Both the position numbers and the translations under genes were made by a program. Of a stretch of DNA of 64,000 bases, positions 9,373 through 39,272 are shown piece by piece; position 1 is the first letter of the stretch, and every line of letters begins with the position of its first letter. The DNA comes from Streptomyces globisporus. Lineage in GTDB: Bacteria > Actinomycetota > Actinomycetes > Streptomycetales > Streptomycetaceae. The notes beneath the pieces were generated by a model, which was given only the letters and a program-made list of their open reading frames with translations, was not told the DNA's origin and made no database searches. Where the stretch lies: assembly GCA_014649555.1 (NCBI GenBank), contig BMTG01000012.1, positions 62,001-126,000 on the forward strand. The letters are read 5' to 3'.

Positions 9373-9414
9373 ATCAAAAGGATGATCACAACAGCAATTC
9401 AACGAACTGTTGAA
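9373..9414 (-). promoter_or_regulatory. Allantoinase promoter with TTCAAC-N5-GTTGAA operator
   Basis: A perfect inverted repeat TTCAAC-GAACT-GTTGAA lies at 9398-9414. On the minus strand its distal half forms a -35 element (TTGAAT, 9402-9397), followed after 18 bp by TTTGAT (9378-9373) and then the allB GTG at 9349. A repressor bound here would cover the -35. The same arrangement occurs before malate synthase, uraD and catalase. Confidence 0.65.
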
Positions 9415-9510
9415 GCTCTGATGGAGTCTTCACTCGGGAAACCCCCTCGTCAAGACCCACCTTCCGGCACGGGGGCCCGTCGGGCCGGCCCTGCCGTCGC
9501 GACTGGAGGT

Positions 9511-9546
9511 TTCCACAAAGTAAAAGTCAGATTTCGAACTGCGGAA
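9511..9546. promoter_or_regulatory. Tandem IclR-type operator between allB and allR
   Basis: Two degenerate 15-bp sites, TTCCA-CAAAG-TAAAA (9511-9525) and TTTCG-AACTG-CGGAA (9532-9546), have centres exactly 21 bp apart. They match the better-preserved pairs before hyi and gcl. They lie in the 362-bp divergent gap, about 165 bp before the allR start, and suggest autoregulation by AllR. Confidence 0.5.
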
Positions 9547-9711
9547 CGTAGCATGGGCCAGGAGGGGCGGCGCCGAGCCGTGCGAACCGACCGGCGGCAC
9601 CCGGACAAAACAGGCCCTGACCGGCACGGACGCCGACCGGGGAGCTGTGGGCCCTATCGGAACCGCCCGGTAGGCTGCTGCCTTGCCTTCCGCTTCGAAA
9701 GGACCGTTGAC

Positions 9712-10515
9712 GTGCCGCCGTCCCACGCCAGCACAGCCGACTCCAAGCCCTCCGGTACCAGCGGTGGGGTGCAGTCCCTTGAGCGCGCCTTCGATCTGCT
9801 GGAGCGGATGGCCGACGCGGGGGGCGAGGTCGGGCTGAGCGAGCTGTCCGCGAGCAGCGGTCTGCCCCTGCCGACCATCCACCGGCTGATGCGCACCCTG
9901 GTCGTCTGCGGATACGTACGCCAGCAGCCCAACCGCCGTTACGCGCTGGGCCCCCGGCTGATCCGTCTCGGCGAGTCCGCCTCCCGGCTGCTGGGCACCT
10001 GGGCGAGGCCCTACCTCAGCCGGCTGGTCGAGGAGACCGGCGAGACGGCGAACATGGCGCTGCTGGACGGGGACGAGATCGTGTACGTCGCCCAGGTGCC
10101 GTCCAAGCACTCGATGCGGATGTTCACCGAGGTCGGCCGGCGCGTCCTGCCCCACTCCACCGGCGTGGGCAAGGCGCTCCTCGCGCACACCCCCGCCGAC
10201 GAGGTCCGCGCGCTCCTGGCCCGTACGGGCATGCCCGCCGCCACGGAGAAGACGATCACCACGCCCGAGGGCTTCCTCGACGCCCTGGAGCAGGTGCGCC
10301 GCGCCGGATACGCGGTGGACGACAACGAGCAGGAGATCGGGGTGCGGTGCCTCGCGGTCTCCGTGCCGAACTCCCCCACCTCGGCCGCGATCTCCATCTC
10401 GGGCCCGGCGGGACGGGTGACGGAGGCGGCCACGGAGCGGATCGTGCCGATCCTCCAGCAGGTCGCGGGCGAGCTGTCGGAGGCCCTGGCGAGCAGTGGG
10501 ACGAACGGGGGCTGA
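9712..10515 (+). CDS. allR: IclR-family regulator, AllR-like
   Basis: A 267-aa regulator with an N-terminal winged helix (GVQSLERAFDLLERMADAG, then LSELSASSGLPLPTIHRLMRTL at about 40-75) and a C-terminal IclR effector domain (ILLP-type region RRVLPHSTGVGKALLAH). GTG at 9712 is chosen because GAAAGGA is 8 nt upstream and the protein then starts just before the DNA-binding domain. It is divergent from allantoinase. In Streptomyces coelicolor an IclR protein in this position (AllR) is known to repress allantoin and glyoxylate genes; assigning that role here is inference from position and from the shared operators. Likely effector: allantoin or a downstream metabolite. Confidence 0.88.
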   Translation: MPPSHASTADSKPSGTSGGVQSLERAFDLLERMADAGGEVGLSELSASSGLPLPTIHRLMRTLVVCGYVRQQPNRRYALGPRLIRLGESASRLLGTWARPYLSRLVEETGETANMALLDGDEIVYVAQVPSKHSMRMFTEVGRRVLPHSTGVGKALLAHTPADEVRALLARTGMPAATEKTITTPEGFLDALEQVRRAGYAVDDNEQEIGVRCLAVSVPNSPTSAAISISGPAGRVTEAATERIVPILQQVAGELSEALASSGTNGG

Positions 10516-10522
10516 GCCCCCG
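10506..10522. terminator. Compact hairpin at the allR/ABC convergence
   Basis: CGGGGGC-TGA-GCCCCCG overlaps the allR stop codon and sits 6 bp from the stop of the convergent ABC ATPase gene. It is a plausible shared terminator. Confidence 0.5.
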
Positions 10523-10527
10523 GCGTT

Positions 10528-12284: not shown

Positions 12285-12394
12285 GGCCCCAGCGTCGTCC
12301 GGCGCGGACGGGAAAACATCGCGCGGCGGACGGGCCCGGGATCAACCTTTCGATTGACCGGGTCCGGGGAGCCCGCGGCTACGCTGGACGGACC

Positions 12395-15437: not shown

Positions 15438-15451
15438 CGCTGGGCCGCCGG

Positions 15452-15475: not shown

Positions 15476-15552
15476 GCGGTCAACAGTCCGTGGCCGCTCT
15501 GGCACGCTGCGCCGCCGAAGGCCCGTTTCTGTCGACCCGGAGAATCTCGACA

Positions 15553-15605
15553 TCAACAAACCATTGAACTTCCACCATGAGGAAACTACTATCCACTGGT
15601 CAGAA
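15553..15605 (+). promoter_or_regulatory. Malate synthase promoter with both operator types
   Basis: TCAAC-AAACC-ATTGA (15553-15567) supplies a -35 TTGAAC (15564-15569); 17 bp on is a -10 TACTAT (15587-15592). The 15-bp sites TTCCA-CCATG-AGGAA (15570-15584) and ATCCA-CTGGT-CAGAA (15591-15605), centres 21 bp apart, fill the spacer and cover the -10. The start codon is about 120 bp downstream. The rest of the 285-bp gap holds the upstream terminator and nothing else I can name. Confidence 0.6.
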
Positions 15606-15722: not shown

Positions 15723-17342
15723 ATGTCCGCACCAGCGCCGTCCACGCTGGCCATCGTCGATGCCGAGCCCCTGCCCCGGCAGGAAGAGGTCCTGACCGAC
15801 GCGGCCCTCGCGTTCGTGGCCGAGCTGCACCGGCAGTTCACCCCGCGCCGCAATGAGCTGCTCACCCGGCGCGGTGAGCGCCGCGCCGAGATCGCCCGCA
15901 CCTCCACGCTGGACTTCCTGCCCGAGACGGCGGCGGTCCGCGCGGACGACTCCTGGAAGGTCGCGCCCGCCCCGGCGGCGCTGAACGACCGCCGGGTGGA
16001 GATCACCGGTCCGACCGACCGCAAGATGACCATCAACGCCCTGAACTCGGGCGCGAAGGTCTGGCTCGCCGACTTCGAGGACGCGTCCGCCCCCACGTGG
16101 GAGAACGTCGTCCTCGGCCAGCTCAACCTCACCGACGCCTACGAGCGCCGCATCGACTTCACCGACCCGAAGTCCGGCAAGTCGTACGCGCTGAAGTCCG
16201 CCGACGAGCTGGCCACGGTGGTCATGCGCCCGCGCGGCTGGCACCTGGAGGAGCGCCACCTCCAGCTGGACGGCGTCTCCGTGCCCGGCGCGCTGGTCGA
16301 CTTCGGCCTCTACTTCTTCCACAACGCGCAGCGCCTGATCGACCTCGGCAAGGGCCCGTACTTCTACCTGCCGAAGACGGAGTCGCACCTCGAGGCCCGC
16401 CTCTGGAACGACATCTTCGTCTTCGCCCAGGACTACGTCGGCATCCCGCAGGGCACGGTCCGCGCGACCGTCCTGATCGAGACGATCACCGCCGCGTACG
16501 AGATGGAGGAGATCCTCTACGAGCTGCGCGACCACGCCGCCGGGCTGAACGCGGGCCGCTGGGACTACCTCTTCTCCATCGTCAAGAACTTCCGTGACGG
16601 CGGCGCCAAGTTCGTCCTGCCGGACCGCAACGCGGTGACGATGACCGCCCCGTTCATGCGGGCGTACACCGAACTCCTGGTCCGCACCTGCCACAAGCGC
16701 GGTGCGCACGCGATCGGCGGCATGGCGGCCTTCATCCCCTCGCGCCGCGACGCCGAGGTCAACAAGGTGGCCTTCGAGAAGGTCAAGGCCGACAAGGACC
16801 GCGAGGCGAACGACGGCTTCGACGGCTCCTGGGTCGCCCACCCCGACCTGGTCCCGATCGCGCTGGCCTCCTTCGACGCGGTCCTCGGCGAGAAGCCCAA
16901 CCAGAAGGACCGGCTGCGCGAGGACGTCTCGGTGGCCCCGGGCGATCTCATCGCCATCGACTCGCTCGACGCGAGCCCCACGTACGACGGCCTGCGCAAC
17001 GCCGTCGCGGTCGGCATCCGCTACATCGAGGCCTGGCTGCGCGGCCTGGGCGCGGTCGCCATCTTCAACCTGATGGAGGACGCGGCCACCGCCGAGATCT
17101 CCCGCTCCCAGATCTGGCAGTGGATCAACGCGGACGTGGTCTTCGAGAACGGCGAGCACGCCACCGCGGACCTGGCCCGCAAGGTCGCCGCCGAGGAACT
17201 GGCCGCGATCCGCGAGGAGATCGGCGAGGAGACGTTCACCGCCGGCAAGTGGCAGCAGGCCCACGACCTCCTGCTCCAGGTCTCCCTGGACCAGGACTAC
17301 GCGGACTTCCTGACCCTGCCCGCGTACGAGCAGCTGCGCTGA
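15723..17342 (+). CDS. aceB: Malate synthase A
   Basis: Condenses glyoxylate with acetyl-CoA to malate (EC 2.3.3.9). The 539-aa length is that of the A form. The family signature with catalytic and metal residues lies near 245-290: LIETITAAYEMEEILYELRD, then LNAGRWDYLFSIVKNF; PRGWHLEERH and GGMAAFIPSRRD are also typical. Here it belongs with the allantoin genes, drawing off the glyoxylate they release, rather than with isocitrate lyase, which is absent. Operator sites upstream tie it to the same control. A very strong terminator follows 21 bp after the stop. Confidence 0.97.
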   Translation: MSAPAPSTLAIVDAEPLPRQEEVLTDAALAFVAELHRQFTPRRNELLTRRGERRAEIARTSTLDFLPETAAVRADDSWKVAPAPAALNDRRVEITGPTDRKMTINALNSGAKVWLADFEDASAPTWENVVLGQLNLTDAYERRIDFTDPKSGKSYALKSADELATVVMRPRGWHLEERHLQLDGVSVPGALVDFGLYFFHNAQRLIDLGKGPYFYLPKTESHLEARLWNDIFVFAQDYVGIPQGTVRATVLIETITAAYEMEEILYELRDHAAGLNAGRWDYLFSIVKNFRDGGAKFVLPDRNAVTMTAPFMRAYTELLVRTCHKRGAHAIGGMAAFIPSRRDAEVNKVAFEKVKADKDREANDGFDGSWVAHPDLVPIALASFDAVLGEKPNQKDRLREDVSVAPGDLIAIDSLDASPTYDGLRNAVAVGIRYIEAWLRGLGAVAIFNLMEDAATAEISRSQIWQWINADVVFENGEHATADLARKVAAEELAAIREEIGEETFTAGKWQQAHDLLLQVSLDQDYADFLTLPAYEQLR

Positions 17343-25490: not shown

Positions 25491-26414
25491 TCAGAGGTTG
25501 GTCATGTCGACCGGGATCTTCGGCTCGACGCCGTCCCGGAGCACGGTGGCCTCGATCAGACCGTAGGGACGGTCCGCCGCGAAGTAGACCTCGTTGTCGT
25601 TCTTGAGGCCGAACGGTTCGAGGTCCACCAGGAAGTGGTGGTTGTTCGGCAGCGAGAAGCGGATCTCGTCGATCTCGCTGCGGCTGTTGATGATGCGCGA
25701 ACCCATTTGGTACAGGGTCTGCTGGAGCGAGAGGGAGTACGTCTCGGCGAAGGCCTGGAGCATGTGCTTGCGCGCCTGCTCGTAGGACTTCTCCCAGTTC
25801 GGCATGCGCTGCTCGTCGCTGGTCCAGTTGTAGCGCCAGCGGGCCGAGACATCCGTCGCCAGGATGCGGTCGTACGCCTCCTTGAGCGTCGTGTACTTGT
25901 CCTTGACGTAGCCCCAGAACTCGGAGTTGGTCGAGTTCATCACGGTCAGGTCCTTGAGGCCCGAGATGACCTCCCAGTTCTCACCGTCGTAGGTGATCTG
26001 GGAGACGCGGGTCTCCATGCCCTTGCGGGCGAAGGAGTGCCTGACCTCGTCGGCGCCGATGAACTTGGAGTTGCCGTCGGAGGTCGCGATGCGCTCCCAG
26101 CTGTACTCCTCGATCCGGATCCGGGCGCGGTGGATCGGCTCCTGGGAGGAGACGAAGTGCCGGGCGAGGTGGATGCCGAACTGCTCGGCGGACTCGATCC
26201 CGTGCTCCTTGGCGAACGCGAACACCGTGTTCTTGGTGGTGTCGGTCGGCAGGACGTTGGCGTTGGAGCCGGAGTAGTGCACGTCGTCCATGTCGCCGGA
26301 GAGGGCGACCGAGACGTTCAGGTCCTTGATGTGGTGGGTGTCGCCGTCCCGCGTGATCTTGACGACGCGGTTCTCTGCTTTGCCGTACTGGTTCTGGCCG
26401 AGAATCGTGGGCAT
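25491..26414 (-). CDS. pucL: Urate oxidase (factor-independent urate hydroxylase)
   Basis: Oxidises urate with O2 to 5-hydroxyisourate and H2O2 (EC 1.7.3.3). The 307-aa length and two T-fold domains match cofactor-free uricase. Catalytic-triad regions are present: Lys in NQYGKAENRVVKI, Thr in VLPTDTTKNTVFAFAKEHGI and His in LPNNHHFLVDLEPFG. It is the third gene of uraD-uraH-pucL, 7 bp after uraH, so all urate-to-allantoin steps are co-transcribed. Its H2O2 may be removed by the catalase encoded at 39315, which shares a promoter motif with this operon. Confidence 0.97.
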   Translation of the reverse strand: MPTILGQNQYGKAENRVVKITRDGDTHHIKDLNVSVALSGDMDDVHYSGSNANVLPTDTTKNTVFAFAKEHGIESAEQFGIHLARHFVSSQEPIHRARIRIEEYSWERIATSDGNSKFIGADEVRHSFARKGMETRVSQITYDGENWEVISGLKDLTVMNSTNSEFWGYVKDKYTTLKEAYDRILATDVSARWRYNWTSDEQRMPNWEKSYEQARKHMLQAFAETYSLSLQQTLYQMGSRIINSRSEIDEIRFSLPNNHHFLVDLEPFGLKNDNEVYFAADRPYGLIEATVLRDGVEPKIPVDMTNL

Positions 26415-26421: not shown

Positions 26422-26811
26422 CTAGCTCCCTCGGTAAACGGAGTAGCCGAACGGGTTGAGCAGCAGCGGTACGTGATAGTGCTCGCCCGGGGAGACCGCG
26501 AACGCGATCGTCACCTCGGGGAAAAACGCACCGCTGTCCCTTACGCGGGGGGCGTCCTGCTGCGCCTCGGCTTGCTTCTTGGAAAAGTACGTCTCGGTGT
26601 CGAATTCGAGGCGTACGTGGGTCGTTCCCTCCGGCAGGGCCGGGAGGTCCTTGCAGCGCCCGTCCGCATCGGTCGCGGACGCTCCGAGCGTGACGTACGG
26701 CGCGTCGCTTCCGCTCCGGGCGGCGAGCGAGACGGCGACGGACGCGGCGGGGCGGCCGATGCTGGTGTCCAGGATGTGGGTGGACACCGATGCGGTCGTG
26801 TCGGTACTCAA
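26422..26811 (-). CDS. uraH: 5-hydroxyisourate hydrolase
   Basis: Transthyretin-like enzyme opening 5-hydroxyisourate to OHCU (EC 3.5.2.17). The family ends are both present: VSTHILDTSIGRPA near the start (active-site His) and the C-terminal YRGS tetrapeptide. TTG at 26811 is chosen: it gives the usual STDTTASVSTHILD start and has AGGAGA about 9 nt upstream, while the GTG at 26820 sits too close to that site. The gene starts 20 bp after the uraD stop. Confidence 0.94.
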   Translation of the reverse strand: MSTDTTASVSTHILDTSIGRPAASVAVSLAARSGSDAPYVTLGASATDADGRCKDLPALPEGTTHVRLEFDTETYFSKKQAEAQQDAPRVRDSGAFFPEVTIAFAVSPGEHYHVPLLLNPFGYSVYRGS

Positions 26812-26831
26812 GACCGTCACTCTCCTAGATC

Positions 26832-27368
26832 TCAAGAGTCCTGTGCGGGAGCGCCCTCGGCGAGGGTCTCCGTCACGAGACGGGTCAGCCGGATGCGGTT
26901 GATCTTGCCCAGTTCGGTGCGCACGATCTCCTGCTCCTGCTCGGGCGAGTTCCCGATCCGGGACTTCACCGCGTCGCGCATCTGCTCACCGGTGGCGCCG
27001 GTGGCGCAGATCAGGAAGACATGTCCGAACCGCTCCTGGTAGGCCAGGTTCAGCTCGAGCATCTCGGTCTTGAGCTCCTCGGAGGCGCCGGCCATCCCCC
27101 GCTGCTCACGGGAGGAGGTCGGGTCGCCGGGCTTCGGGCGGCCGATCGGCGGGTGGCCCGCCATCGCGTCGGCCAGGTCCGCCGCGGTGAGCTGCGCCGT
27201 GGCGGCGTCGCTCGCGGCGAGCAGGGCTTCTTCGGTGGCGTACGGACGCCCGGCGAGAATCGTGTTTCCCCAGCTCGCACTGGCACATACCTCGTGCAGT
27301 GCGGGGGTGGCCTCGCCGTCCGCCAGGGTGTTGAACCGGGTGAGGCCCGGTGTGGAGCTCGAAGTCAC
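26832..27368 (-). CDS. uraD: OHCU decarboxylase
   Basis: Decarboxylates 2-oxo-4-hydroxy-4-carboxy-5-ureidoimidazoline to S-allantoin (EC 4.1.1.97). A 178-aa helical protein with the conserved FNTL, CASASW, the catalytic His in AGHPPIGRP and LNLAYQERFGHVFLICATG. GTG at 27368 has GGAGG 6 nt upstream. It is the first gene of uraD-uraH-pucL; its promoter with the TTCAAC-N5-GTTGA operator lies about 50 bp upstream. Confidence 0.95.
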   Translation of the reverse strand: MTSSSTPGLTRFNTLADGEATPALHEVCASASWGNTILAGRPYATEEALLAASDAATAQLTAADLADAMAGHPPIGRPKPGDPTSSREQRGMAGASEELKTEMLELNLAYQERFGHVFLICATGATGEQMRDAVKSRIGNSPEQEQEIVRTELGKINRIRLTRLVTETLAEGAPAQDS

Positions 27369-27415: not shown

Positions 27416-27457
27416 TAGCTAACGCCCTCCGCAACACGACGTCAACACTTTGTTGAA
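27416..27457 (-). promoter_or_regulatory. Promoter/operator of the urate operon
   Basis: Read on the minus strand: TTCAACAAAGTGTTGACG, in which TTGACG (27445-27440) is the -35, then 18 bp, then TAGCTA (27421-27416) as -10. TCAAC-N5-GTTGA occupies 27442-27456. The catalase promoter has the same string with one base changed and the same spacing. Confidence 0.72.
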
Positions 27458-27532: not shown

Positions 27533-27931
27533 CTACTCACCCTTGGCCGAATGTTCCCGGTTCAGATAGTTGTACACGGTGAATCTGGATACGCCCAGGG
27601 CACCGGCCACGGTCTCCACTCCGTGCCGTACGGAGAAGGCACCGCGTGCCTCCAGGGTCCGGACGACGCTCTGCTTGGCCTTGCGGTCCAGGTCGGCGAG
27701 CGGCATCCCGTGCCGTCGCTCCATCGCGGCGAGGATGTGGTCCAGCGAGTCGGAGAGCTGGGGCAGGCGTACGGCTATGACGTCCTGCCCCTCCCAGGCG
27801 AGCACCACATCGTCCGGCTGGGCCTGCTCGGGGCCCAGCAGCTCGGCGCCCATCGCGTCGACGAGCGGCTTGACGGCCGATACGAAGGGGTGGTCGACGG
27901 TGACCGGAACGTTATCGGCGGATTCGGTCAC
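27533..27931 (-). CDS. Short DauR/YheO-like HTH protein
   Basis: A 132-aa protein. The C-terminal half matches the HTH_22 domain of DauR/YheO regulators: KAKQSVVRTLEARGAFSVRH, then ETVAGALGVSRFTVYNYLN. The N-terminal half is much shorter than the PAS-like domain of full-length YheO proteins (about 220 aa), so the sensing part is reduced. GTG at 27931 has GGAGGAG 6 nt upstream and overlaps the stop of the thiamine-binding-protein gene by GTGA. Position directly upstream of the urate operon makes it a candidate regulator of that operon and of the other TTCAAC-N5-GTTGA promoters; this is inference. Confidence 0.78.
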   Translation of the reverse strand: MTESADNVPVTVDHPFVSAVKPLVDAMGAELLGPEQAQPDDVVLAWEGQDVIAVRLPQLSDSLDHILAAMERRHGMPLADLDRKAKQSVVRTLEARGAFSVRHGVETVAGALGVSRFTVYNYLNREHSAKGE

Positions 27932-28179
27932 CGGATCTCCTCCTCGATCACGTTCACCTGGAGCGAGACCCGGGTGGCGCCCGAGGCCAGAGCCTGGCGC
28001 AGCAGGGAGTCCACGGCGGTGAGCACCTCGTCCGCGCCCCCTTCCGCGGTGTTGCCGAAGGGGCCGACGTCGACGGCGTCCAACTCGGCGCCCTGGATCA
28101 CCTCCCGGGCCACCACCGCGTGGGTGGGCGCCTCGTCGAGATCGAAGGGCTCGGTGGTGAATTCCACCCTCAAGCGCAC
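27928..28179 (-). CDS. Thiamine-binding protein family (DUF77/MTH1187-like)
   Basis: An 83-aa ferredoxin-like-fold protein. It opens VRLRVEFTTEPFDLDEAPTH, has the VGPFGNTAEGGADEVLTAVD core and ends TRVSLQVNVIEEEIR, matching the DUF77 pattern. Some members bind thiamine and form tetramers; others are uncharacterised. GTG at 28179 follows GGGAGG by 5 nt. It is the first gene of a pair with the DauR-like HTH protein (4-bp overlap), so it may act as a small-molecule sensing partner. Confidence 0.78.
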   Translation of the reverse strand: MRLRVEFTTEPFDLDEAPTHAVVAREVIQGAELDAVDVGPFGNTAEGGADEVLTAVDSLLRQALASGATRVSLQVNVIEEEIR

Positions 28180-29507: not shown

Positions 29508-29631
29508 GCGAGGCACCTCGGGTGGGGGTCGGCTGCTTCGGATGCGTCCGCCACCCTGGCCCGCCGACGCCCGCACGGCAAGAGGTGCAACCGGAGTTGC
29601 ATCCTCTGCAACGTCGGCGGATGACGGGCGT

Positions 29632-30471: not shown

Positions 30472-30635
30472 AGGTTCCCCTCCCGACGGGTCCACTTTTC
30501 TTACCAGTTGGCGATCGATCCGGCCGAACTGGCCTGCTGGTCAGGTGAAGTGTAGCGCTTTCCCCGGGACGCAAAAGCGATCTCGTTGCGCACAGATCAT
30601 CAAATTGCCTTTGTACGCAGGGGGTTGACGACCCC

Positions 30636-30651
30636 ATTGGTCTATGCCACC
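30636..30651 (+). promoter_or_regulatory. DasR-like operator after a TTGACG element
   Basis: ATTGGTCTATGCCACC matches 12 of 16 positions of the DasR-responsive consensus as I know it (ACTGGTCTAGACCACT). It lies just downstream of TTGACG (30625-30630), a good -35 element. It should be bound by the divergent GntR protein or by a global DasR. Confidence 0.55.
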
Positions 30652-30678
30652 TTCAACCCCCATCGAGAGGTGAGCTGT

Positions 30679-30695
30679 CCAGTGGACTCCACTGG
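30679..30695 (+). promoter_or_regulatory. 17-bp palindrome and GGTCAGG direct repeats
   Basis: CCAGTGGA-C-TCCACTGG is a perfect palindrome with one central base. It is followed by a run of TGGTCAGG/GTCAGGT direct repeats up to about 30727, ending roughly 30 bp before the start codon of the binding-protein gene. A second GntR-type operator or leader element is likely. Confidence 0.5.
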
Positions 30696-30755
30696 TCAGG
30701 TGGTCAGGTCAGGTCATGTCAGGTCCGTCAGATCAGTCTGCTTCCGAGGTGAACC

Positions 30756-32024
30756 GTGAAGTACCGCTTGCTTGCCGGTGGGTCCGTGCTCGTCCTGACC
30801 GCCGTGCTCAGTGCCTGCAGTTCGTCGTCCGGATCGGACTCGGGCAACGGGGACGGCCGGACGACGGTGGACGTCTGGCTGATGCGCGACAGCGTCTCGG
30901 CGCAGTTCCAGAAGGAGTTCACCGCGGACTTCGAGAAACGCCACCCGACGATCGACGTGAAGATCCAGATCCAGGAGTGGGACGGGATCGGCCAGAAGAT
31001 CACCGCCGCCCTGGCGAGCAACGACGCCCCGGACGTCATCGAGGCGGGCAACACCCAGGTGGCCCAGTTCGCGGAGAGCGGCGGACTGCTCGACCTCAGC
31101 GACCGCAAGGACGAGCTGAACGGCGAGGACTGGCTGAACGGCCTCGCCGAGCCGGGCTCGTACGAGGGCAAGCAGTACGGCATCCCGTATTACGCGGCGA
31201 ACCGGGTGGTCATCTACCGCACCGACCTCTTCGAGAAGGCGGGCGTCGACGCGGCGGGCATCAAGACCCGCGAGCAGTGGATCGACGCCACGGCCGAGCT
31301 CAACAAGGGCGGCACGCAGGGCATCTACCTGCCGGGACAGATGTGGTACGCGCTGGCCGGGTTCATCTGGGACGAGGGCGGCGACCTCGCCGCCGAGTCC
31401 GGCGGGAAGTGGTCCGGCGCACTGGACACCCCCGAGGCGCTGCGCGGCATGGCGTTCTACGAGGAGCTCCAGGCGCTCGGCAAGGGCCCCAAGGACTCCG
31501 ACGAGGACGACCCGCCGCAGGCCGAGGTGATGGCCCAGGGTCAGGTGGCCCAGGTCATCTCCACGCCGGGCGGGGCCAACGTCATCGCGGAGAACAACCC
31601 CGAACTCAAGGGCAAGCTCGCCTTCTTCCCGATCCCGGGCAAGACGGCCGACACCCCGGGGGCGGTCTTCACCGGCGGCTCCGACCTGGTCGTGCCGGCC
31701 GCGGCGGCCCACCCCGACGAGGCGGTCACCTTCATCAAGGAGCTGACCGGGGACACCTGGCAGAAGAAGCTCGCCGTCGCCATGAGCTACGTGCCGAACC
31801 GGACCTCCCTGGCCTCCGCCGTGGCCGACGACCCGGGGGCCGCCGCGATGGCGGTCGGCGCGGCCAACGGGCACGCCACCCCCAACACCCCGGGCTGGGC
31901 GGCGGTCGAGGCGGAGAACCCGATCAAGGACTACATGACGGCGGTGCTCACCGGCGGCGATCCCGCGAAGGAGGCGGCGAAGGCCTCGCAGGACATCACC
32001 CGGGCCATGAACGCCGGTTCCTGA
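30756..32024 (+). CDS. Sugar ABC transporter substrate-binding lipoprotein
   Basis: A 422-aa extracellular binding protein of the carbohydrate CUT1 type. The signal peptide ends in LSAC with Cys21 as lipid anchor. SBP landmarks include TVDVWLMRDSVSAQFQKEFT, APDVIEAGNTQVAQFAESGG, GIPYYAANRVVIYRTDLFEK and GAVFTGGSDLVVPA. GTG at 30756 has GAGGTG 6 nt upstream. With two permease genes and a GH20 hexosaminidase downstream, the ligand is probably a chito-oligosaccharide or GlcNAc-containing sugar. The ATPase is not in the operon; such systems usually borrow the shared MsiK. Confidence 0.93.
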   Translation: MKYRLLAGGSVLVLTAVLSACSSSSGSDSGNGDGRTTVDVWLMRDSVSAQFQKEFTADFEKRHPTIDVKIQIQEWDGIGQKITAALASNDAPDVIEAGNTQVAQFAESGGLLDLSDRKDELNGEDWLNGLAEPGSYEGKQYGIPYYAANRVVIYRTDLFEKAGVDAAGIKTREQWIDATAELNKGGTQGIYLPGQMWYALAGFIWDEGGDLAAESGGKWSGALDTPEALRGMAFYEELQALGKGPKDSDEDDPPQAEVMAQGQVAQVISTPGGANVIAENNPELKGKLAFFPIPGKTADTPGAVFTGGSDLVVPAAAAHPDEAVTFIKELTGDTWQKKLAVAMSYVPNRTSLASAVADDPGAAAMAVGAANGHATPNTPGWAAVEAENPIKDYMTAVLTGGDPAKEAAKASQDITRAMNAGS

Positions 32025-32026
32025 CC

Positions 32027-32080
32027 CGGATCCGCCCTCTCCCGGCCCTGAGACGGATCCGCCCTCTCCCGGCCCTGAGA
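32027..32080 (+). repeat. Two exact 27-bp tandem copies between transporter genes
   Basis: The unit beginning CGGATCCGCCCTCTCCCGGC occurs at 32027-32053 and again, without a mismatch, at 32054-32080, filling the 70-bp gap between the binding-protein stop and the permease ribosome site AAGGAGG. It looks like a recent slippage duplication. Confidence 0.95.
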
Positions 32081-32094
32081 CAAGGAGGCATGCC

Positions 32095-33087
32095 GTGCCG
32101 GTCGTCGACCAACGGACCGCACCCAGCACCCCCCGGCGACGCCCGGCCCCGCGCCTCGCCCTCCGCACATCCCCGCCCCGGCGCCGGGGAACGGGCAGGG
32201 CCCAGGGCCTCTGGCCGTACGCCCTGGTCGCCCCCGCCGTCGGCGGCATGCTCTATCTGCTGGTCTACCCGCTGGTGCGGGCCGTCCTGATCTCGTTCCA
32301 GGACTTCCGACTGCGGCAACTGATCGCCGGCGATGCCGACTTTGTCGGCCTGCGGAACTACCGGACGCTGCTGACGGACCCCCGCTTCTGGGAGGTGGTC
32401 CGCCGCACCTTCCTCTTCATGGCGGTCAACGTCGTCCTGATCATGGTGATCGCCACCCTGGTCGCCCTGATGGTGGAGCGGCTGGGCCGGATCGGGCGGA
32501 CGGTGGTGCTGTGCTCGCTCGTGCTGGCCTGGGCCATGCCGGTGGTCGCGGCGACCACCGTCTTCCAATGGCTGTTCCACTCGGAGTTCGGCATCGTCAA
32601 CTGGTCGCTGACCTCGCTCGGCCTCGACTCCTTCGACCGCTATCCGTGGTTCGCCAACGGCACCGCGGCCTTCGCGATCCTGGTGACGCTGATCGTCTGG
32701 CAGTCGGTGCCGTTCGCCGCGATCACCCTGTACTCGGCGCTGACCACCGTCTCCCCCGAGCTGTACGAGTCGGCGCGGCTGGACGGGGCGGGCGCGGGGC
32801 GGATCTTCCGCTCGGTCACCTTCCCGATCCTGCGGCCGATCTTCCTGCTGGTGGTGTCGCTGGAGGTGATCTGGACCTTCAAGGCGTTCGTCCAGATCTG
32901 GGTGATGACCCGGGGCGGGCCGGGCGACGCCACGACGATCCTGCCGGTCTACGCCGTGCAGACCGCGCTCTCCAGTCAGCGGTACGACCTCGGTTCCGCC
33001 GCCTCGATGGTCACCGTGGTCCTGATGTCCGGGGTGCTCGTCCTCTACTTCCGCCAGATGCTCCGCCAGGAGGACGAGACCCGATGA
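32095..33087 (+). CDS. Sugar ABC transporter permease (MalF-like)
   Basis: A 330-aa membrane subunit with six predicted helices after a basic cytoplasmic N-terminus rich in Arg and Pro. The EAA loop that docks the ATPase reads YESARLDGAGAGRIFRSVTF followed by PILRPIF near residues 223-250. GTG at 32095 has AAGGAGG upstream. It overlaps the next permease gene by ATGA and works with it as a heterodimer. Confidence 0.94.
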   Translation: MPVVDQRTAPSTPRRRPAPRLALRTSPPRRRGTGRAQGLWPYALVAPAVGGMLYLLVYPLVRAVLISFQDFRLRQLIAGDADFVGLRNYRTLLTDPRFWEVVRRTFLFMAVNVVLIMVIATLVALMVERLGRIGRTVVLCSLVLAWAMPVVAATTVFQWLFHSEFGIVNWSLTSLGLDSFDRYPWFANGTAAFAILVTLIVWQSVPFAAITLYSALTTVSPELYESARLDGAGAGRIFRSVTFPILRPIFLLVVSLEVIWTFKAFVQIWVMTRGGPGDATTILPVYAVQTALSSQRYDLGSAASMVTVVLMSGVLVLYFRQMLRQEDETR

Positions 33088-33929
33088 ACTCACCTGTCGC
33101 GCGCCTTCGGCTCCGGCGCCTTCCGCTGCACCTCGCGGCCGCCGTGACCGTCGTGGTCTGCCTCTTCCCCGTGTACTGGATGATCTCCACGGCCTTCAAG
33201 CCGTCCAAGGACATCCAGTCGTCGGACCCGCAGCTCTTCCCGCACACCTGGACCCTCGACCACTTCCAACGGGCCGTGGACGCCGACGGGTTCGCCCTGT
33301 TCTGGCGCAACAGCATCCTCGTGACGCTGGGGGCCGTCCTGCTGGCGCTGCTGGTGGCGCTGGGCGCGGCGTACGCCGTGGCACGGCTGCGGTGGCGGGG
33401 CCGGCGGCAGTTCATGCTGATGATCTTCATCGCGCAGATGGCGCCCTGGGAGTCACTGATCATCCCGATCTACATCATCTCCCGGGACACGAACATGCTC
33501 GATCGGCTGCCGACGCTGACGCTGATCTACTTCATGATCACGCTGCCGTTCACCGTCGTGGTGCTGCGCGGCTTCATCGGGACGATCCCGCCGGAGCTGG
33601 AGGAGGCGGCGCAGGTCGACGGCTGCACCCGGACCGGGGCGTTCCGGCGGGTGGCGATGCCGCTGCTGGCGCCGGGGCTGATGGCGACCTCGCTGTTCGG
33701 CTTCATCACCGCCTGGAACGAGTTCGCCTACGCCAACTTCCTGATCATCAAACAGCAGGACAACCGGACGCTGCCGGTCTGGCTGTCGTCCTTCCAGAAC
33801 ACCTTCGGCACCGACTGGGGCGCCACGATGGCCGCCTCCACCCTCTTCGCGCTGCCCGCCCTGGTGATCTTCCTGCTGCTCCAGCGCCATGTCACGTCCG
33901 GCTTCGCCGCCGGTGCCGTGAAGGGCTGA
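33084..33929 (+). CDS. Sugar ABC transporter permease (MalG-like)
   Basis: A 281-aa membrane subunit with six helices; it opens with VVCLFPVYWMISTAFKPSKD, typical of MalG-type CUT1 permeases. The EAA loop is ELEEAAQVDGCTRTGAFRRV near residues 172-191. ATG at 33084 overlaps the preceding stop by 4 bp, so translation is coupled. Partner of the MalF-like protein and the upstream binding lipoprotein. Confidence 0.95.
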   Translation: MNSPVARLRLRRLPLHLAAAVTVVVCLFPVYWMISTAFKPSKDIQSSDPQLFPHTWTLDHFQRAVDADGFALFWRNSILVTLGAVLLALLVALGAAYAVARLRWRGRRQFMLMIFIAQMAPWESLIIPIYIISRDTNMLDRLPTLTLIYFMITLPFTVVVLRGFIGTIPPELEEAAQVDGCTRTGAFRRVAMPLLAPGLMATSLFGFITAWNEFAYANFLIIKQQDNRTLPVWLSSFQNTFGTDWGATMAASTLFALPALVIFLLLQRHVTSGFAAGAVKG

Positions 33930-34011
33930 GCGGCGGGGAACGCCGATCGGCCCCCTCCGCCACCCGCCCCTCCGCCAGTCCGCCTGCCCGCGAACCGAAT
34001 CCGGAGTCCCC

Positions 34012-35622
34012 GTGCCCGCATCGCGCCCCGACCTCACCCTCCTCCCCCGCCCGAGCAAGGTCTCCTCGCTCGGCGGCCGGCTCACCCTGGACCGGGACAC
34101 CACCGTCCGCGCGCTGCCGGGCGCGGAACCGGCGGCGGACCTGCTGCGCACCCTGGTCGGCCACCCCGCCGGGCTTCCTCTCACCCCCTCGTCCGACGGC
34201 CGGGTCGTCCTCGCCCTGGACGACCGGCTCGGCGGCCTCGGCGAGGAGGGGTACGGGCTGACGGTCGCCCCGCAGGCGCTCCAACTGCGCGCCGCCCACC
34301 GCACCGGGCTGCTCCGGGGCATCCAGACGATCCGCCAACTCCTGCCCGCCGAGGCCCTGTCGGGCGGGGCGTCGGGCACCGGCCGCTGGGAGCTGCCCTG
34401 CGTCGAGATCACCGACGTACCGGACCGGCCGTGGCGCGGGGCGATGCTGGACGTGGCGCGCCGCTTCCAGCCGATCGGCTATCTGCACCGGTACGTGGAC
34501 CTGCTGGCGCTGCACAAGCTGAACGTCCTGCACCTCCACCTCACCGACGACCAGGGCTGGCGGATGCCGGTCGACGCCTACCCCCGGTTGATCTCGGTCG
34601 GCTCCCGGCGGGCGAGGTCGCAGAAGGGCCCGACCGGTCCGGACGGGGCGCACTTCGACGCGGTACCGCACGAAGGTGCTTACACCAAGGCGGAGTTGAG
34701 GGGGCTGGTGCGGTACGCGGCGGAGCGCGGGATCACCGTCGTGCCGGAGATCGAGATGCCCGGCCATGTACGGGCCGCGCTCGCCGCCTACCCGGAGCTG
34801 GGCAACCATCCGGGGCGACAGCTGGACGTGTGGACCCGGTGGGGGGTGTGCGACACGATCCTCGGCGTGCACGAGGGGGTCTTCGACTTCTGCCGGGCCG
34901 TGCTGGAGGAGGTGATGGACGTCTTCCCGTCGCCGTACATCCACATCGGCGGCGAGGAGTGCCCGACCACCGAGTGGGAGGACAGCCCGGCCGCCCGGGA
35001 ACGTGCGGCGGCGCTGGGACTCGCGGGCCCGGCCGAGCTGCACGGCTGGTTCATGGGCCGGGTCGGGGCGTTCCTGGTGGAGCGCGGCCGGATCCCGCTC
35101 GGCTGGGTCGAGAACGGCGCCGAACTCCCCCCGGAGTTCACGGTGATGACCTGGCGCGACGCCACGCACGCCCGCGCTGCCGCCCGCCGCGGCCATCAGG
35201 TGATCGCCGCGCACCACCGGGCGACCTATCTCGACTACGCCCAGTCCACGGACCCGTCCGAGCCGGTCGCCCAGCCCGGCGCGGCGGTCCCGCTGCACAC
35301 GGTCCACGGCTACGAACCGGCTCCGCACGACTGGCCGGAGGCGGAGCGGGCCCGGGTGCTCGGGACCCAGGTCCAGCTGTGGACGGAGTACGCATGCACC
35401 CCCGAGGAGATCGAGTACCTCAGCTTTCCCCGGCTCTGCGCGCTGGCCGACCGTTCCTGGTCCGGCGGGCGCGGCGACTGGCCGGGGTTCGTCGAGCGGC
35501 TGCGCCACCACGCCGCCCGGCTGGACGCCCTGGGCGTCCCCTACCGCCCCCTGGACGCGCGGTCGCTCGCGACGGCCGGGTCCGCGTCCCCCTCCGCAGG
35601 TACAGCGCGACTCCACCCGTAA
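34012..35622 (+). CDS. GH20 beta-N-acetylhexosaminidase
   Basis: A 536-aa enzyme that should release terminal GlcNAc or GalNAc from oligosaccharides. The GH20b domain covers about residues 10-140 and the TIM barrel about 145-495 (WRGAMLDVARRFQPIGYLHR, NVLHLHLTDDQGWR, VVPEIEMPGHVRAALAAYPE). The catalytic motif is HIGGEE at 311-316: the general acid is Glu316, but the preceding residue, which polarises the substrate acetamide and is usually Asp, is Glu315. No signal peptide, so it acts on imported sugars. It follows the permease genes after 82 bp in the same operon direction. Confidence 0.92.
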   Translation: MPASRPDLTLLPRPSKVSSLGGRLTLDRDTTVRALPGAEPAADLLRTLVGHPAGLPLTPSSDGRVVLALDDRLGGLGEEGYGLTVAPQALQLRAAHRTGLLRGIQTIRQLLPAEALSGGASGTGRWELPCVEITDVPDRPWRGAMLDVARRFQPIGYLHRYVDLLALHKLNVLHLHLTDDQGWRMPVDAYPRLISVGSRRARSQKGPTGPDGAHFDAVPHEGAYTKAELRGLVRYAAERGITVVPEIEMPGHVRAALAAYPELGNHPGRQLDVWTRWGVCDTILGVHEGVFDFCRAVLEEVMDVFPSPYIHIGGEECPTTEWEDSPAARERAAALGLAGPAELHGWFMGRVGAFLVERGRIPLGWVENGAELPPEFTVMTWRDATHARAAARRGHQVIAAHHRATYLDYAQSTDPSEPVAQPGAAVPLHTVHGYEPAPHDWPEAERARVLGTQVQLWTEYACTPEEIEYLSFPRLCALADRSWSGGRGDWPGFVERLRHHAARLDALGVPYRPLDARSLATAGSASPSAGTARLHP

Positions 35623-35659
35623 CCACTCCCCCACCACCGTTCCGGAGAGGAACACGCCT

Positions 35660-37090
35660 GTGAACACATCACGCAGGAATCCGCACAGGTCGAGGCTGCG
35701 CACCGCCGCCGCATCGGCCGCCGCCGTGGCCCTGGCCGCCACCGGTCTGGCCGCCCTGCCGTCCTCGGCGTCCGCCGCGGCCGACGGGGTCGTGGTCCAG
35801 TACCGTACGAGCGCGTCCGGAGCGAGTGCCGACCAGAGCGAACCGTGGCTGAAGGTCCGTAACGCCGGCTCCGCCTCCGTACCGCTGAGCAGCGTCAAGG
35901 TCCGCTACTACTTCAAGGCCGACTCGGCGTCCGCCGCCTACCGGTTCGCCTGTTCCTGGGCGGTGAAGGGGTGCGCGAACATCACCGGTACGTTCGGGAC
36001 GCTCGCGAACCCGACCGCCACCGCCGACCGCTACCTGGAGATCGGCTTCACCGCCGGGGCGGGCTCGCTCGCCCCGGGCGCGGACACCGGGGACATGCAA
36101 CTCCGGTTCCACCAGAGCTCCTGGGCCTCGCTCGTCCAGTCCGACGACTACTCCTTCGGCCCGGACCGGACGGCGTACGGCGACTGGGCCAAGGTGACGG
36201 CCCACGTGAACGGGGCGACCGTGTGGGGCGAGGCGCCCGGCGGCAACGGCCCGACGGACCCGCCCACCGACCCGCCGGGGGACGCGCCGACGCTGTTCGA
36301 CGACTTCAACTACAGCTCGCACACCGACCCGAAGATCGGAGCCAACGGCTGGAGCGTACGGTCCAACTCGGGCGGCCCCGGCGTACCGGGCGCGACATGG
36401 GCGCCCGAGAACGTCACCTTCGCCTCGCAGAGCGGCAACTCCGTGATGAACCTGGAGACGTCGACGGCGGGTACGGGCGCTTCGACGAAGCACACCGAGA
36501 TCCTGACCAAGTCGATGAAGTTCAAGAACGGGACCTACGCGTCCCGGGTGAAGTTCAGCGACGCCCCGCGCTCGGGCCCGGACGGCGACCGGATCGTGCA
36601 GACCTTCTTCACCATCAACGACCTCAAGGCGCCGATGGCGGACGACTACGCGGAGTACGACTTCGAGTATCTGCCGAACGGCGGCTGGGGCGAGCCGGCC
36701 AACATCCTCTACACGACCTCGTGGGAGACCTACCGGCCCGACCCGTGGGAGGCGGTCAACGCGCACAGCGAGGTCCGGGCGTCGTACGCGGGCTGGCACG
36801 ACCTGGTGGTGACGATCGACGACAACCAGATCACGTACTACGTGGACGGTCAGCACTTCGGCACGCACGGGGCGGCGTATCTGCCCGAGCGGCCGATGTC
36901 GATCAACTTCAACCAGTGGCTGATCGATCTGGAGGGCCAGCCGAGCACGACGCCCCGCGCCTACGACCAGCAGGTGGACTACGTCCTGCATGTGAAGGAC
37001 CAGGTGCTCACCCCCTCCCAGGTGAACGCGATGGTCGGGGCGTACCGCAGTGCGGGGACGAGCTTCGAGGACACGGTTCCGGGGAGCTAG
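35660..37090 (+). CDS. Secreted CBM3-GH16 protein (putative beta-glucanase)
   Basis: A 476-aa exported protein. After a signal peptide (cut near SASAA, about residue 40) comes a CBM3-like cellulose-binding domain (VVVQYRTSASGASADQSEPW, VRYYFKADSAS, QLRFHQSSWASL; about 42-195), a Pro/Thr linker (PTDPPTDPPGD) and a concanavalin-type GH16 domain (about 215-475). The GH16 catalytic motif EYDFE is at 332-336. Likely substrate is a beta-1,3- or mixed-link glucan on cellulose-containing material. GTG at 35660 follows GGAGAGGAA. It lies 37 bp after the GH20 gene and ends at a strong terminator, so it may be the last gene of the sugar operon. Confidence 0.82.
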   Translation: MNTSRRNPHRSRLRTAAASAAAVALAATGLAALPSSASAAADGVVVQYRTSASGASADQSEPWLKVRNAGSASVPLSSVKVRYYFKADSASAAYRFACSWAVKGCANITGTFGTLANPTATADRYLEIGFTAGAGSLAPGADTGDMQLRFHQSSWASLVQSDDYSFGPDRTAYGDWAKVTAHVNGATVWGEAPGGNGPTDPPTDPPGDAPTLFDDFNYSSHTDPKIGANGWSVRSNSGGPGVPGATWAPENVTFASQSGNSVMNLETSTAGTGASTKHTEILTKSMKFKNGTYASRVKFSDAPRSGPDGDRIVQTFFTINDLKAPMADDYAEYDFEYLPNGGWGEPANILYTTSWETYRPDPWEAVNAHSEVRASYAGWHDLVVTIDDNQITYYVDGQHFGTHGAAYLPERPMSINFNQWLIDLEGQPSTTPRAYDQQVDYVLHVKDQVLTPSQVNAMVGAYRSAGTSFEDTVPGS

Positions 37091-37117
37091 GAGCGGTAGG
37101 TACGGCGTGAGAGCCGG

Positions 37118-37151
37118 GCGGGGCGGGGGTCGAAGGCGGCCCCCGCCCCGC
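37118..37151 (+). terminator. Terminator after the GH16 gene
   Basis: GCGGGGCGGGGG pairs perfectly with CCCCCGCCCCGC across a 10-nt loop, followed by TTTCGT, 27 bp after the stop codon. Confidence 0.88.
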
Positions 37152-37224
37152 TTTCGTATGCCCGGATGGGCTGCTGCCACCGATTCCGTACGCCGCCGAC
37201 CGGGGCGAATTTTGCGGCACCCCC

Positions 37225-37289
37225 TTGACAGCCCTGCCCCCCTCCGGGCAATCTTCCGTTAAGCAGAAACTAACTTCCGCAATACGGAA
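37225..37289 (+). promoter_or_regulatory. hyi promoter with tandem TTCCG-N5-CGGAA operators
   Basis: A consensus -35 TTGACA (37225-37230) is followed by a weak -10 (CAATCT, 37249-37254). Directly after it lie TTCCG-TTAAG-CAGAA (37254-37268) and the perfect TTCCG-CAATA-CGGAA (37275-37289), centres 21 bp apart. The gcl promoter carries an almost superimposable pair in the same order. AllR is the likely ligand. Confidence 0.72.
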
Positions 37290-37306
37290 GGAGCGCCGAA
37301 ACCCTC

Positions 37307-38146
37307 ATGGGATACCCGGACCAGCGCTTCAATGTGAACCTCTCGATCCTCTTCACGGAACTCCCGCTCCTGGAGCGTCCCGCGGCAGCCGCCGCGGCGG
37401 GCTTCACCGCGGTCGAGCTGTGGTGGCCCTGGATCGAAACCCCCACCCCCATCAGGGCAGAGCTCGACGCCCTCAAGAAGGCGCTCGACGACGCCGGCAC
37501 CCAGCTGGTGGGACTGAACTTCTACGCCGGACAGCTGCCCGGCCCCGACCGCGGCGCGCTCTCCGTGCCCGGCGCGGAGTCGGACCGCTTCCGGGAGAAC
37601 ATCGAGGTGGCGGCCGACTTCGCCGCCTCGGTCGGCTGCACGGCGCTCAACGCGCTGTACGGCAACCGCGTCGAGGGCGTGGACCCGCAGGTCCAGGACG
37701 CGCTCGCGCTGGAGAACCTGGTGCTGGCCGCCCGCGCGGCGGACCGCGTCGGGGCGATCCTCCTGGTCGAGACCCTGAACAAGCCGGAGTCGCCGCTCTA
37801 TCCGCTGGTCAGCGCACCGGCCGCGATCGAGGTCGTCGACAAGGTCAACGCGGCGACGGGCCTCGGGAACGCGAAGTTCCTGCTGGACCTGTACCACCTC
37901 TCGATGAACGGCGAGGACCTCAGCCAGGTCATCAAGGCGTACGCCGCGAAGACCGGCCACGTCCAGATCGCCGACAACCCGGGACGCGGCGCGCCGGGCA
38001 CCGGCTCCCTCCCGCTGGAGCGGCTCCTGGACGAGCTGAAGGACGCCGGTTACACGGGCTGGGTCGGCCTGGAGTACAAGCCGGGCGACCGGCCGAGCGC
38101 CGAGTCCTTCGACTGGCTCCCGGCGTCGGCCCGAGCGGCCGGCTGA
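37307..38146 (+). CDS. hyi: Hydroxypyruvate isomerase
   Basis: Interconverts hydroxypyruvate and tartronate semialdehyde (EC 5.3.1.22). A 279-aa xylose-isomerase-like TIM barrel beginning MGYPDQRFNVNLSILFTELP, with metal-site segments ILLVETLNKPESPLYPL, FLLDLYHLSMNGEDL, HVQIADNPGRGAPGTG and WVGLEYKP, as in the bacterial Hyi family. First gene of hyi-glxR; it handles the product made by Gcl, encoded 5 kb away under the same kind of operator. Confidence 0.93.
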   Translation: MGYPDQRFNVNLSILFTELPLLERPAAAAAAGFTAVELWWPWIETPTPIRAELDALKKALDDAGTQLVGLNFYAGQLPGPDRGALSVPGAESDRFRENIEVAADFAASVGCTALNALYGNRVEGVDPQVQDALALENLVLAARAADRVGAILLVETLNKPESPLYPLVSAPAAIEVVDKVNAATGLGNAKFLLDLYHLSMNGEDLSQVIKAYAAKTGHVQIADNPGRGAPGTGSLPLERLLDELKDAGYTGWVGLEYKPGDRPSAESFDWLPASARAAG

Positions 38147-38192
38147 CCGGCCGCCCCCCTTACGTACGCACGTTTTTCAGGAAGGCACCCTC

Positions 38193-39086
38193 ATGAGCAA
38201 CAACCTCCCCAAGGTCGCCTGGATCGGTCTCGGCATCATGGGCTCCCCCATGTCGGAGAACCTGATCAAGGCCGGTTACTCCGTCACCGGATACACCCTG
38301 GAGCAGGACAAGATCGACCGGCTGGTCGCGGCCGGCGGCACCGGCGCCTCCTCGATCGCGGACGCGGTCAGGGACGCGGATGTCGTCATCACGATGGTGC
38401 CCGCGTCGCCGCAGGTCGAGGCCATCGCGTACGGCCCGGACGGCATCCTGGAGAACGCGAAGCGCGGCGCGCTGCTGGTGGACATGTCCTCCATCACCCC
38501 GCAGACCTCGGTCGACCTCGCCAAGAACGCGGCCGAGAAGGGCATCCGGGTCCTGGACGCGCCGGTCTCCGGCGGCGAGGCCGGCGCCATCGAGGCGGTC
38601 CTGTCCATCATGGTCGGCGGTGAGCAGGCGGACTTCGACGCCGCGAAGCCCCTCCTGGACGCACTCGGCAAGACCATCGTGCTCTGCGGCCCCCACGGCT
38701 CCGGCCAGACGGTGAAGGCAGCCAACCAGCTGATCGTCGCGGTCAACATCCAGGCCTGCGCCGAGGCCGTGGTCTTCCTGGAGAAGTCCGGGGTCGACCT
38801 CACCGCCGCGCTCGACGTCCTCAACGGGGGCCTCGCCGGCTCGACCGTGCTGACCCGCAAGAAGGACAACTTCCTGAAGCGGGACTTCGCCCCCGGCTTC
38901 CGGATCGACCTGCACCACAAGGACATGGGCATCGTCACGGACGCCGCCCGCAACGTCGGCGCGGCCCTGCCCGTCGGCGGTGTGGTCGCCCAGCTGGTCG
39001 CCTCGCTGCGCGCCCAGGGCGACGGCGGCCTCGACCACTCGGCGCTGCTGCGGTCGGTCGAGCGGCTCTCCGGCTCCCAGGTCTGA
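38193..39086 (+). CDS. glxR: Tartronate semialdehyde reductase
   Basis: Reduces tartronate semialdehyde to D-glycerate with NAD(P)H (EC 1.1.1.60). A 297-aa beta-hydroxyacid dehydrogenase: Rossmann motif GLGIMGSPMSENLIKAGY near the N-terminus, substrate loop DAPVSGGEAGA near 123 and the catalytic Lys in TVKAANQLIVA near 172. It follows hyi after 46 bp with its own ribosome site (CAGGAAGG) and is almost certainly co-transcribed. Confidence 0.94.
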   Translation: MSNNLPKVAWIGLGIMGSPMSENLIKAGYSVTGYTLEQDKIDRLVAAGGTGASSIADAVRDADVVITMVPASPQVEAIAYGPDGILENAKRGALLVDMSSITPQTSVDLAKNAAEKGIRVLDAPVSGGEAGAIEAVLSIMVGGEQADFDAAKPLLDALGKTIVLCGPHGSGQTVKAANQLIVAVNIQACAEAVVFLEKSGVDLTAALDVLNGGLAGSTVLTRKKDNFLKRDFAPGFRIDLHHKDMGIVTDAARNVGAALPVGGVVAQLVASLRAQGDGGLDHSALLRSVERLSGSQV

Positions 39087-39230
39087 CCCCTCCGGCTCCG
39101 CGAGGAGCCCCTGGCCTCGTACGGGGCCACGGCCCGCACGGCGGGCCCCCTGATCTCCGGGCCGCGGTGGCGCTGACACCTGTCCTGTCGCGCCCAGGCG
39201 CTGCCGCGGCCCGGAACCACACACTTCGTT

Positions 39231-39272
39231 TTCAACAAACTGTTGACGTTCTCTCCGCGGCGAATCTACGCT
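39231..39272 (+). promoter_or_regulatory. Catalase promoter with TTCAAC-N5-GTTGAC operator
   Basis: TTCAACAAACTGTTGACG (39231-39248) contains the -35 TTGACG at 39243-39248; 18 bp on is TACGCT (39267-39272). The operator, -35 and spacing copy the uraD promoter almost base for base. The start codon is 43 bp after the -10. Confidence 0.72.

Follow-up and report, generated by a model that had tools for sequence, protein, structure and literature searches.

DauR of Pseudomonas aeruginosa is a transcriptional regulator that joins a PAS_6 sensor domain (PF08348) to an HTH_22 DNA-binding domain (PF13309). DauR is listed as the regulator of the dauBAR operon (PMC7789669) and serves arginine genes. CfiR (Cj1387c) of Campylobacter jejuni is a YheO-like protein of the same class, with a PAS6 sensor and a helix-turn-helix, and represses a neighboring gene unrelated to the targets described here; the main text of that report contains neither the words binding site nor palindrom- (PMC4519771). 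HucR of Deinococcus is a urate-responsive repressor of uricase from a different DNA-binding family, the MarR family, and uses a single site in a divergent intergenic region, with no catalase partner mentioned in the accessible text (PMC5487221). Here we describe a 64-kb stretch of Streptomyces globisporus DNA (assembly GCA_014649555.1, contig BMTG01000012.1, positions 62,001 to 126,000), referred to as the window. An 18-bp palindrome overlaps the -35 boxes of its urate operon and its catalase gene and is very probably bound by an HTH_22 protein encoded beside the urate genes. Unlike DauR, this protein has no PAS_6 match, and a small Thiamine_BP-like protein is encoded next to it.

Two further families are relevant to this locus. 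AllR of Streptomyces coelicolor is an IclR-family protein that reportedly controls allantoin genes in a comparable gene neighborhood (Navone et al. 2015, cited in PMC12772271). AllR differs from the regulator proposed here in its family and in its likely site in the window, TTCCG-N5-CGGAA, and five genomes retain the 18-bp motif although they lack an AllR ortholog. The Thiamine_BP/DUF77 family, which includes MTH1187 and TM0486, is matched weakly by the partner protein, whose gene here overlaps or is fused to that of a DNA-binding protein in a purine cluster.

A palindrome at the uraD and catalase promoters

The element reads TTCAACA-N3-TGTTGACG, and its right arm doubles as the -35 box at the uraD and catalase promoters. 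An earlier note on this DNA had described a block common to both promoters, followed by the same 18-bp spacer and a -10 box, and had recognized in it an inverted repeat (TCAAC-N5-GTTGA) over the -35. Both points are borne out in register and geometry: the 18-mer matches without mismatch at each promoter, and 18 bp separate TTGACG from the -10 box in both (TAGCTA at uraD and TACGCT at catalase). The copies in the window are as follows.

27440..27457, minus strand: predicted operator TTCAACAAAGTGTTGACG of the uraD-uraH-uricase promoter; the last six bases are the -35 box (27445-27440), and the -10 box TAGCTA lies at 27421-27416.
39231..39248, plus strand: predicted operator TTCAACAAACTGTTGACG of the catalase promoter; -35 box at 39243-39248 and -10 box TACGCT at 39267-39272.
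9398..9415, minus strand (the strand of allB): diverged operator TTCAAC-N5-GTTGAA upstream of allB, with two mismatches to the 18-mer.
15552..15569, plus strand: weak operator-like site ATCAACAAACCATTGAAC upstream of aceB, overlapping a -35 box TTGAAC.

Scanning the window with the 18-mer at up to three mismatches returned three matches (catalase and uraD with none, allB with two), and 100 dinucleotide shuffles of the window returned zero. The perfect core TCAAC-N5-GTTGA occurs three times in the window, against at most about 0.016 expected if bases were independent and identically distributed. The earlier note had proposed a genome scan for the block. In the whole 8.2-Mb genome, TTCAACANNSTGTTGA is found exactly at two places only, the uraD and catalase promoters, and not at unrelated promoters; the allB copy is one among five genome-wide matches with one mismatch. 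By its sequence, the 18-bp block is an operator-like palindrome.

The aceB site is one of 31 window matches with up to two mismatches to TCAAC-N5-GTTGA, where 9.4 are expected, and is weak alone. It is accepted only because similar sites recur in relatives: within about 200 bp, 44 of 78 aceB loci match with up to three mismatches, and 34 do not. The allB copy (at most three mismatches) is kept in all 15 fetched same-genus loci containing allB and in 32 of 60 loci over all genera.

Conservation of the site

The family sample comprised 101 genomes, with the 16-mer pattern read backwards as the control. The exact 16-mer TTCAACAAASTGTTGA is present in 82 of these genomes and the control in none. 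Ninety-eight exact sites were examined in loci fetched from relatives, leaving out the window; 80 belong to uraD, 11 to catalase, and 7 were not assigned to a target. All 91 assigned sites agree in orientation with the strand of their target gene. The two bases after the 16-mer were not part of the search and are conserved as C (100%) and G (99%) in the 69 uraD rows scored, while the flanks are variable.

Ten more genomes with HTH_22 fall outside the exact pattern and retain its arms; eight differ only in the N3 spacer, and two have one mismatch. In genome G056, the uraD and catalase sites carry an identical altered spacer. In a broader sample of the class, TTCAACANNNTGTTGACG occurs in 29 of 33 same-genus genomes versus 2 of 312 others. 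Three of the four same-genus genomes without it also lack a close HTH_22 ortholog, and the fourth has a site with one mismatch.

The HTH_22 protein as candidate binder

Two overlapping genes upstream of uraD encode the proposed regulator and its proposed partner.

27533..27931, minus strand: HTH_22 (PF13309) regulator of 132 amino acids, the proposed binder (PF13309 E 6.4e-20; AlphaFold2 model with a predicted local distance difference test score of 87.6; co-occurrence with the site).
27928..28179, minus strand: Thiamine_BP (PF01910)-like protein of 83 amino acids, the proposed ligand-sensing partner; its stop overlaps the HTH_22 start by 4 nt.

The HTH_22 domain scores 71.4 bits against a gathering score of 29.6, and no PAS_6 match was found in the 132-residue protein at E up to 1. 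In the confident structural model, a small alpha/beta part precedes the helices. The recognition helix is nearly invariant among 50 aligned orthologs.

HTH_22 and the site occur together. A uraD-linked HTH_22 gene is present in 93 of the 101 family genomes, and 92 of these 93 have the site (82 exact, 10 variant with at most one mismatch outside the spacer), whereas the exact 16-mer is found in none of the 8 genomes without the linked gene. Six of the 101 have no PF13309 match, and G053 and G086 have a PAS-type paralogue only. At the level of loci, 101 uraD loci have HTH_22 and a site with at most one mismatch, and three (G008, G025, and G068, from three genera) have neither. Two loci have HTH_22 and no site before uraD: G022, and L161, where uricase is the first gene and carries the site. 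In G048, the uraD site is present and HTH_22 lies about 13 kb away. The site, its conservation, and its tie to HTH_22 are established computationally, as are the coupling and fusion of the two regulator genes described below.

A separate observation concerns G074, a 76% complete genome, in which the HTH_22 frame shifts inside the recognition helix (L090:9515-9844); this may be an assembly error.

A literature search covering few subscription papers found none on this site or regulator. SCO6209-SCO6211 are named as urate genes in the accessible text of one paper (PMC4991794), and a table in another calls SCO6208 a putative transposase (PMC3897704). From gene order only, SCO6208 may be the HTH_22 protein. 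SLCG_7083 was considered as a published ortholog and is not identified with the HTH_22 protein; the main text of its report contains none of uric-, catalase, or allantoin (PMC10717218).

The site and HTH_22 beyond the family

Outside the family, just two genomes of the class have the 18-mer (L161 and L162), and in both it lies directly between HTH_22 and the urate operon. In L161, uricase leads the operon, yet the site still follows HTH_22. A genus-mate, L203, has the site with one mismatch.

In the order of genome G386, PF13309 is over the cut-off in 63 of 298 genomes. TTCAACANNNTGTTGA was searched in 80 genomes of this order, 56 with HTH_22 (E <1e-9) and 24 others (11 without a PF13309 match and 13 with a weak one). 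It was found in 44 of the 56 HTH_22-bearing genomes versus 4 of the 24 others (Fisher p 5e-7, with groups unmatched by family). The search gave 66 distinct sites. For 40 of these, an HTH_22 domain is no more than 1 kb away, and 35 of the 40 are located downstream of it on the same strand. The distances from the domain end to the site are spread over the three reading frames, which speaks against a coding constraint on the sequence. A second exact site is present 5.7-6.4 kb on the 5' side of HTH_22 in G610, G646, G710, G722, G725, G733, G735, G760, and G790.

G386 itself contains a PAS_6+HTH_22 gene (L206:2453-3463; recognition helix TRYTVYNYLN), in which PAS_6 was matched. A perfect TTCAAC-N5-GTTGAA lies about 76 bp before its likely start, which is approximate since longer open frames with earlier starts exist. 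The palindrome is placed between this start and the likely start of a divergent open reading frame (ORF) that resembles an amino-acid permease, as judged from its translation with no family search. A Mycobacterium montefiorense relative that is 91% identical to the G386 protein has the palindrome with one mismatch at the same place, and the more distant PAS+HTH_22 relatives L209 and L210 have TCAAC-N5-GTTGA upstream. PAS-type genes with other recognition helices differ: no such palindrome is among those listed (arms of at least 6) for L181, L183, and L185, and nothing better than two mismatches was found in 5 kb at L204 and L205.

A Thiamine_BP-like partner and a proposed mechanism

The stop of the Thiamine_BP-like gene overlaps the HTH_22 start by 4 nt in 97 of 102 loci. 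The window protein scores 23.9 bits, just under the Thiamine_BP cut-off of 24.9 (Pfam E 4.2e-5), and its profile matches in the PDB are 1yqh and 1vk8 (TM0486). In L203 and L161, a Thiamine_BP-like part and HTH_22 are contained in one ORF; only L203 was scored, and it exceeds both the Thiamine_BP cut-off (40.7 bits) and that of HTH_22. The overlap and the fusion suggest a repressor whose ligand sensor is detached and replaces PAS_6. The case for the partner as the sensor is evenly balanced, and urate or xanthine as its ligand is a doubtful proposal. We tentatively suggest a regulator class in which an HTH_22 protein has lost PAS_6 and may be translationally coupled or fused to a purine (urate-type) sensor of the Thiamine_BP fold, controlling uricase, catalase, and the route to malate across several actinobacterial families.

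From these sequence patterns we infer dimer binding, repression, the sensor role, and the ligand. At the uraD-uraH-uricase and catalase promoters, a dimer of HTH_22 would bind TTCAACA-N3-TGTTGA over the -35 box and so keep RNA polymerase out. The Thiamine_BP-like partner would bind an inducer, urate or a neighboring purine product, and this would free the promoters, so that uricase and the catalase that removes the hydrogen peroxide made by uricase would rise together. Through the weaker copies at allB and aceB, control would reach further towards glyoxylate and malate. That the block is the operator of the HTH_22 regulator, acting in this way, is judged probable.

Weighing the assignment

Several observations weigh against this assignment. 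With the HTH_22 model as query, Foldseek gave no PDB relative up to E 0.001. In G022, an HTH_22 gene that looks intact adjoins uraD (L180:8391-8765), with neither the operator nor an AllR ortholog, and G053, which lacks a uraD-linked HTH_22, still carries a copy of the site between allR and aceB. For the G386 order, the Fisher controls were hand-picked and mostly from other families, and G606 has a marginal HTH_22 match that is marked over the cut-off. In the same order, 26 of the 66 sites are more than 1 kb away from any HTH_22 domain, and an exact site is close to only 37 of the 93 HTH_22 genes. L211, a third distant PAS+HTH_22 relative, has no such palindrome upstream. Among the catalase loci fetched, 39 of 61 have no site with at most one mismatch, including the same-genus L114 (G095). 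The HTH_22 protein is nonetheless regarded, on sequence and co-occurrence, as very probably the binder of the operator.

The alternative that survives best keeps HTH_22 as the binder and makes it a class II activator, with the palindrome centered near -40. Activators that overlap the -35 box use a center position about 40 bp upstream of the start, and the palindrome is centered at about that distance from the expected start. The -35 box is already near consensus, however, and the -10 box is workable; the characterized relative CfiR represses in the accessible account (PMC4519771). Activation is rated as rather improbable, and HTH_22 is likely to be a repressor rather than an activator.

A different binder, the AllR-like IclR regulator at 9712-10515 with allantoate or glyoxylate as inducer, is unlikely. 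The group 2 consensus of the IclR family, TGRAACA-N1-2-TGTTYCA, is similar in shape (PMC8222616, accessible text), the weak copies at allB and aceB lie near allR, and the site kept by G053 would fit this binder. The phyletic pattern goes the other way and favors HTH_22 over the IclR protein as binder of the site. IclR is matched at E 1.6e-63 or better in 93 of the 101 family genomes, whereas in the other eight no match improves on E 4e-44; HTH_22 is present in six of these eight, and the uraD site persists in five of those six. Conversely, G008, G025, and G068 have AllR and uraD and no site. Another palindrome, the IclR-type TTCCG-N5-CGGAA, is located at hyi, allR, aceB, and gcl, and the 18-bp block differs from it, as the earlier note had stated when it called the block distinct from an AllR-type site. 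Because G053 keeps a site without a uraD-linked HTH_22, sites of the allB and aceB type may have another binder, and the binder is less certain for these diverged copies.

Slightly less probable again is a peroxide- or purine-responsive regulator encoded at an unlinked locus (Fur/PerR-, OxyR-, or MarR/HucR-like), with HTH_22 as a passenger of urate clusters. A catalase target fits a peroxide sensor, and urate-responsive MarR repressors exist, as the accessible text on HucR describes (PMC5487221). The site nevertheless follows HTH_22 when the operon order changes in L161, and it lies beside the PAS_6+HTH_22 gene of G386, facing a permease-like ORF, with no urate gene in the 4.5 kb examined; the three uraD loci without HTH_22 have no site.

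That the block is mere conserved -35 context, or chance, is next to impossible and was rejected by the genome and family counts: its right half resembles a consensus -35 box, but there are two exact copies only in 8.2 Mb, the reversed control is absent from 101 genomes, the ten inexact genomes with HTH_22 keep both arms within one mismatch, and the site is tied to one transcription factor gene family in another order.

Proposed target genes and extent of the regulon

The window (72% GC) is a purine-to-glyoxylate region that contains alc, allB, an IclR gene, aceB, purine permease genes, an 8-oxoguanine-deaminase-like gene, uricase, uraH, uraD, hyi, glxR, catalase, and gcl. The proposed targets are as follows.

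26832..27368, minus strand: uraD (2-oxo-4-hydroxy-4-carboxy-5-ureidoimidazoline decarboxylase), first gene of the predicted regulated operon; NCBIfam NF010372 and TIGR03180 over the cut-off.
26422..26835, minus strand: uraH (5-hydroxyisourate hydrolase/transthyretin family); PF00576.
25491..26414, minus strand: uricase; PF01014 E 2.3e-63.
39315..40772, plus strand: catalase; PF00199 E 1.4e-187 for the open frame from 39243.
7967..9349, minus strand: allB allantoinase; TIGR03178 over the cut-off.
15723..17342, plus strand: aceB malate synthase A; TIGR01344 over the cut-off.

The predicted core of the regulon is uraD-uraH-uricase. Leaving out the window, 20 same-genus loci that include a catalase gene were fetched, and 19 of them have the catalase site without mismatch; it is present with one mismatch in all three fetched loci of one other genus, which makes 3 of 41 outside the own genus. 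In six catalase loci there is only a form resembling a half-site, oriented the opposite way, and a further 32 loci have none. The earlier note had linked catalase to urate oxidation; this stands in the genus of the window, and by sequence the predicted membership of catalase in the regulon is clade-specific.

Five stray exact 16-mer sites in genus g14 (L054, L058, L062, L068, and L071) were considered as noise, which was rejected because they lie near a malic-enzyme-like gene. Four are 34-77 bp upstream of its start, and the fifth, in L071, is inside an ORF that runs into the same malic-enzyme-like N-terminus. The NCBIfam malic-enzyme model is below its cut-off for both g14 genes tested. This target would extend the regulon beyond malate.

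Two features of gene order were also observed. A block of lactonase, GntR-UTRA, solute-binding, ABC, GH20, and CBM genes (28290-37090) separates the HTH_22 gene from hyi in the window, and G024 (L100) shares this arrangement; the HTH_22 module directly adjoins hyi in many relatives. The xanthine/urate permease genes at 20835-22301 and 24019-25422 flank the 8-oxoguanine-deaminase-like gene, and their DNA is 71-75% alike over the longest matching stretches.

A second, IclR-type palindrome

The window also contains a second, different system.

9712..10515, plus strand: AllR-like IclR regulator, start approximate; all IclR NCBIfam models, including the AllR model NF007548, are below their cut-offs.
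37274..37290, no strand assigned: IclR-type site CTTCCGCAATACGGAAG at hyi, a second motif separate from the HTH_22 operator.

TTCCG-N5-CGGAA is found in the window at hyi (37274-37290), at gcl (44481-44497), and in diverged form between allB and allR (9531-9547). These three matches compare with 0.54 expected, and 3 of 100 shuffles reach that number. With at most one mismatch, it is present at gcl in 30 of 58 loci versus 0 of 3, before the Thiamine_BP-like gene in 73 of 96 versus 1 of 6, and at hyi in 74 of 78 versus 3 of 3, where the second figure is for a group marked AllR-less that includes L161 and L162, whose AllR content was assumed. The palindrome is tentatively assigned to AllR. Some relatives have a sequence similar to it after the -10 box of their catalase promoters. 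The Escherichia coli AllR-like motif TTGGAAA-N4-TTTCCAA has no match in the window at up to three mismatches.

Significance

This analysis puts forward a candidate operator, with its regulon and its regulator, in a transcription factor family with few studied members, in Pseudomonas and Campylobacter, in the accessible literature. It offers an explanation of how these bacteria could couple uricase to catalase, and it reduces the question to one small protein pair, one 18-bp site, and two promoters. Should the Thiamine_BP-like protein turn out to sense the ligand, it would add a new type of sensing module to those of bacterial repressors and could be considered as a urate biosensor.

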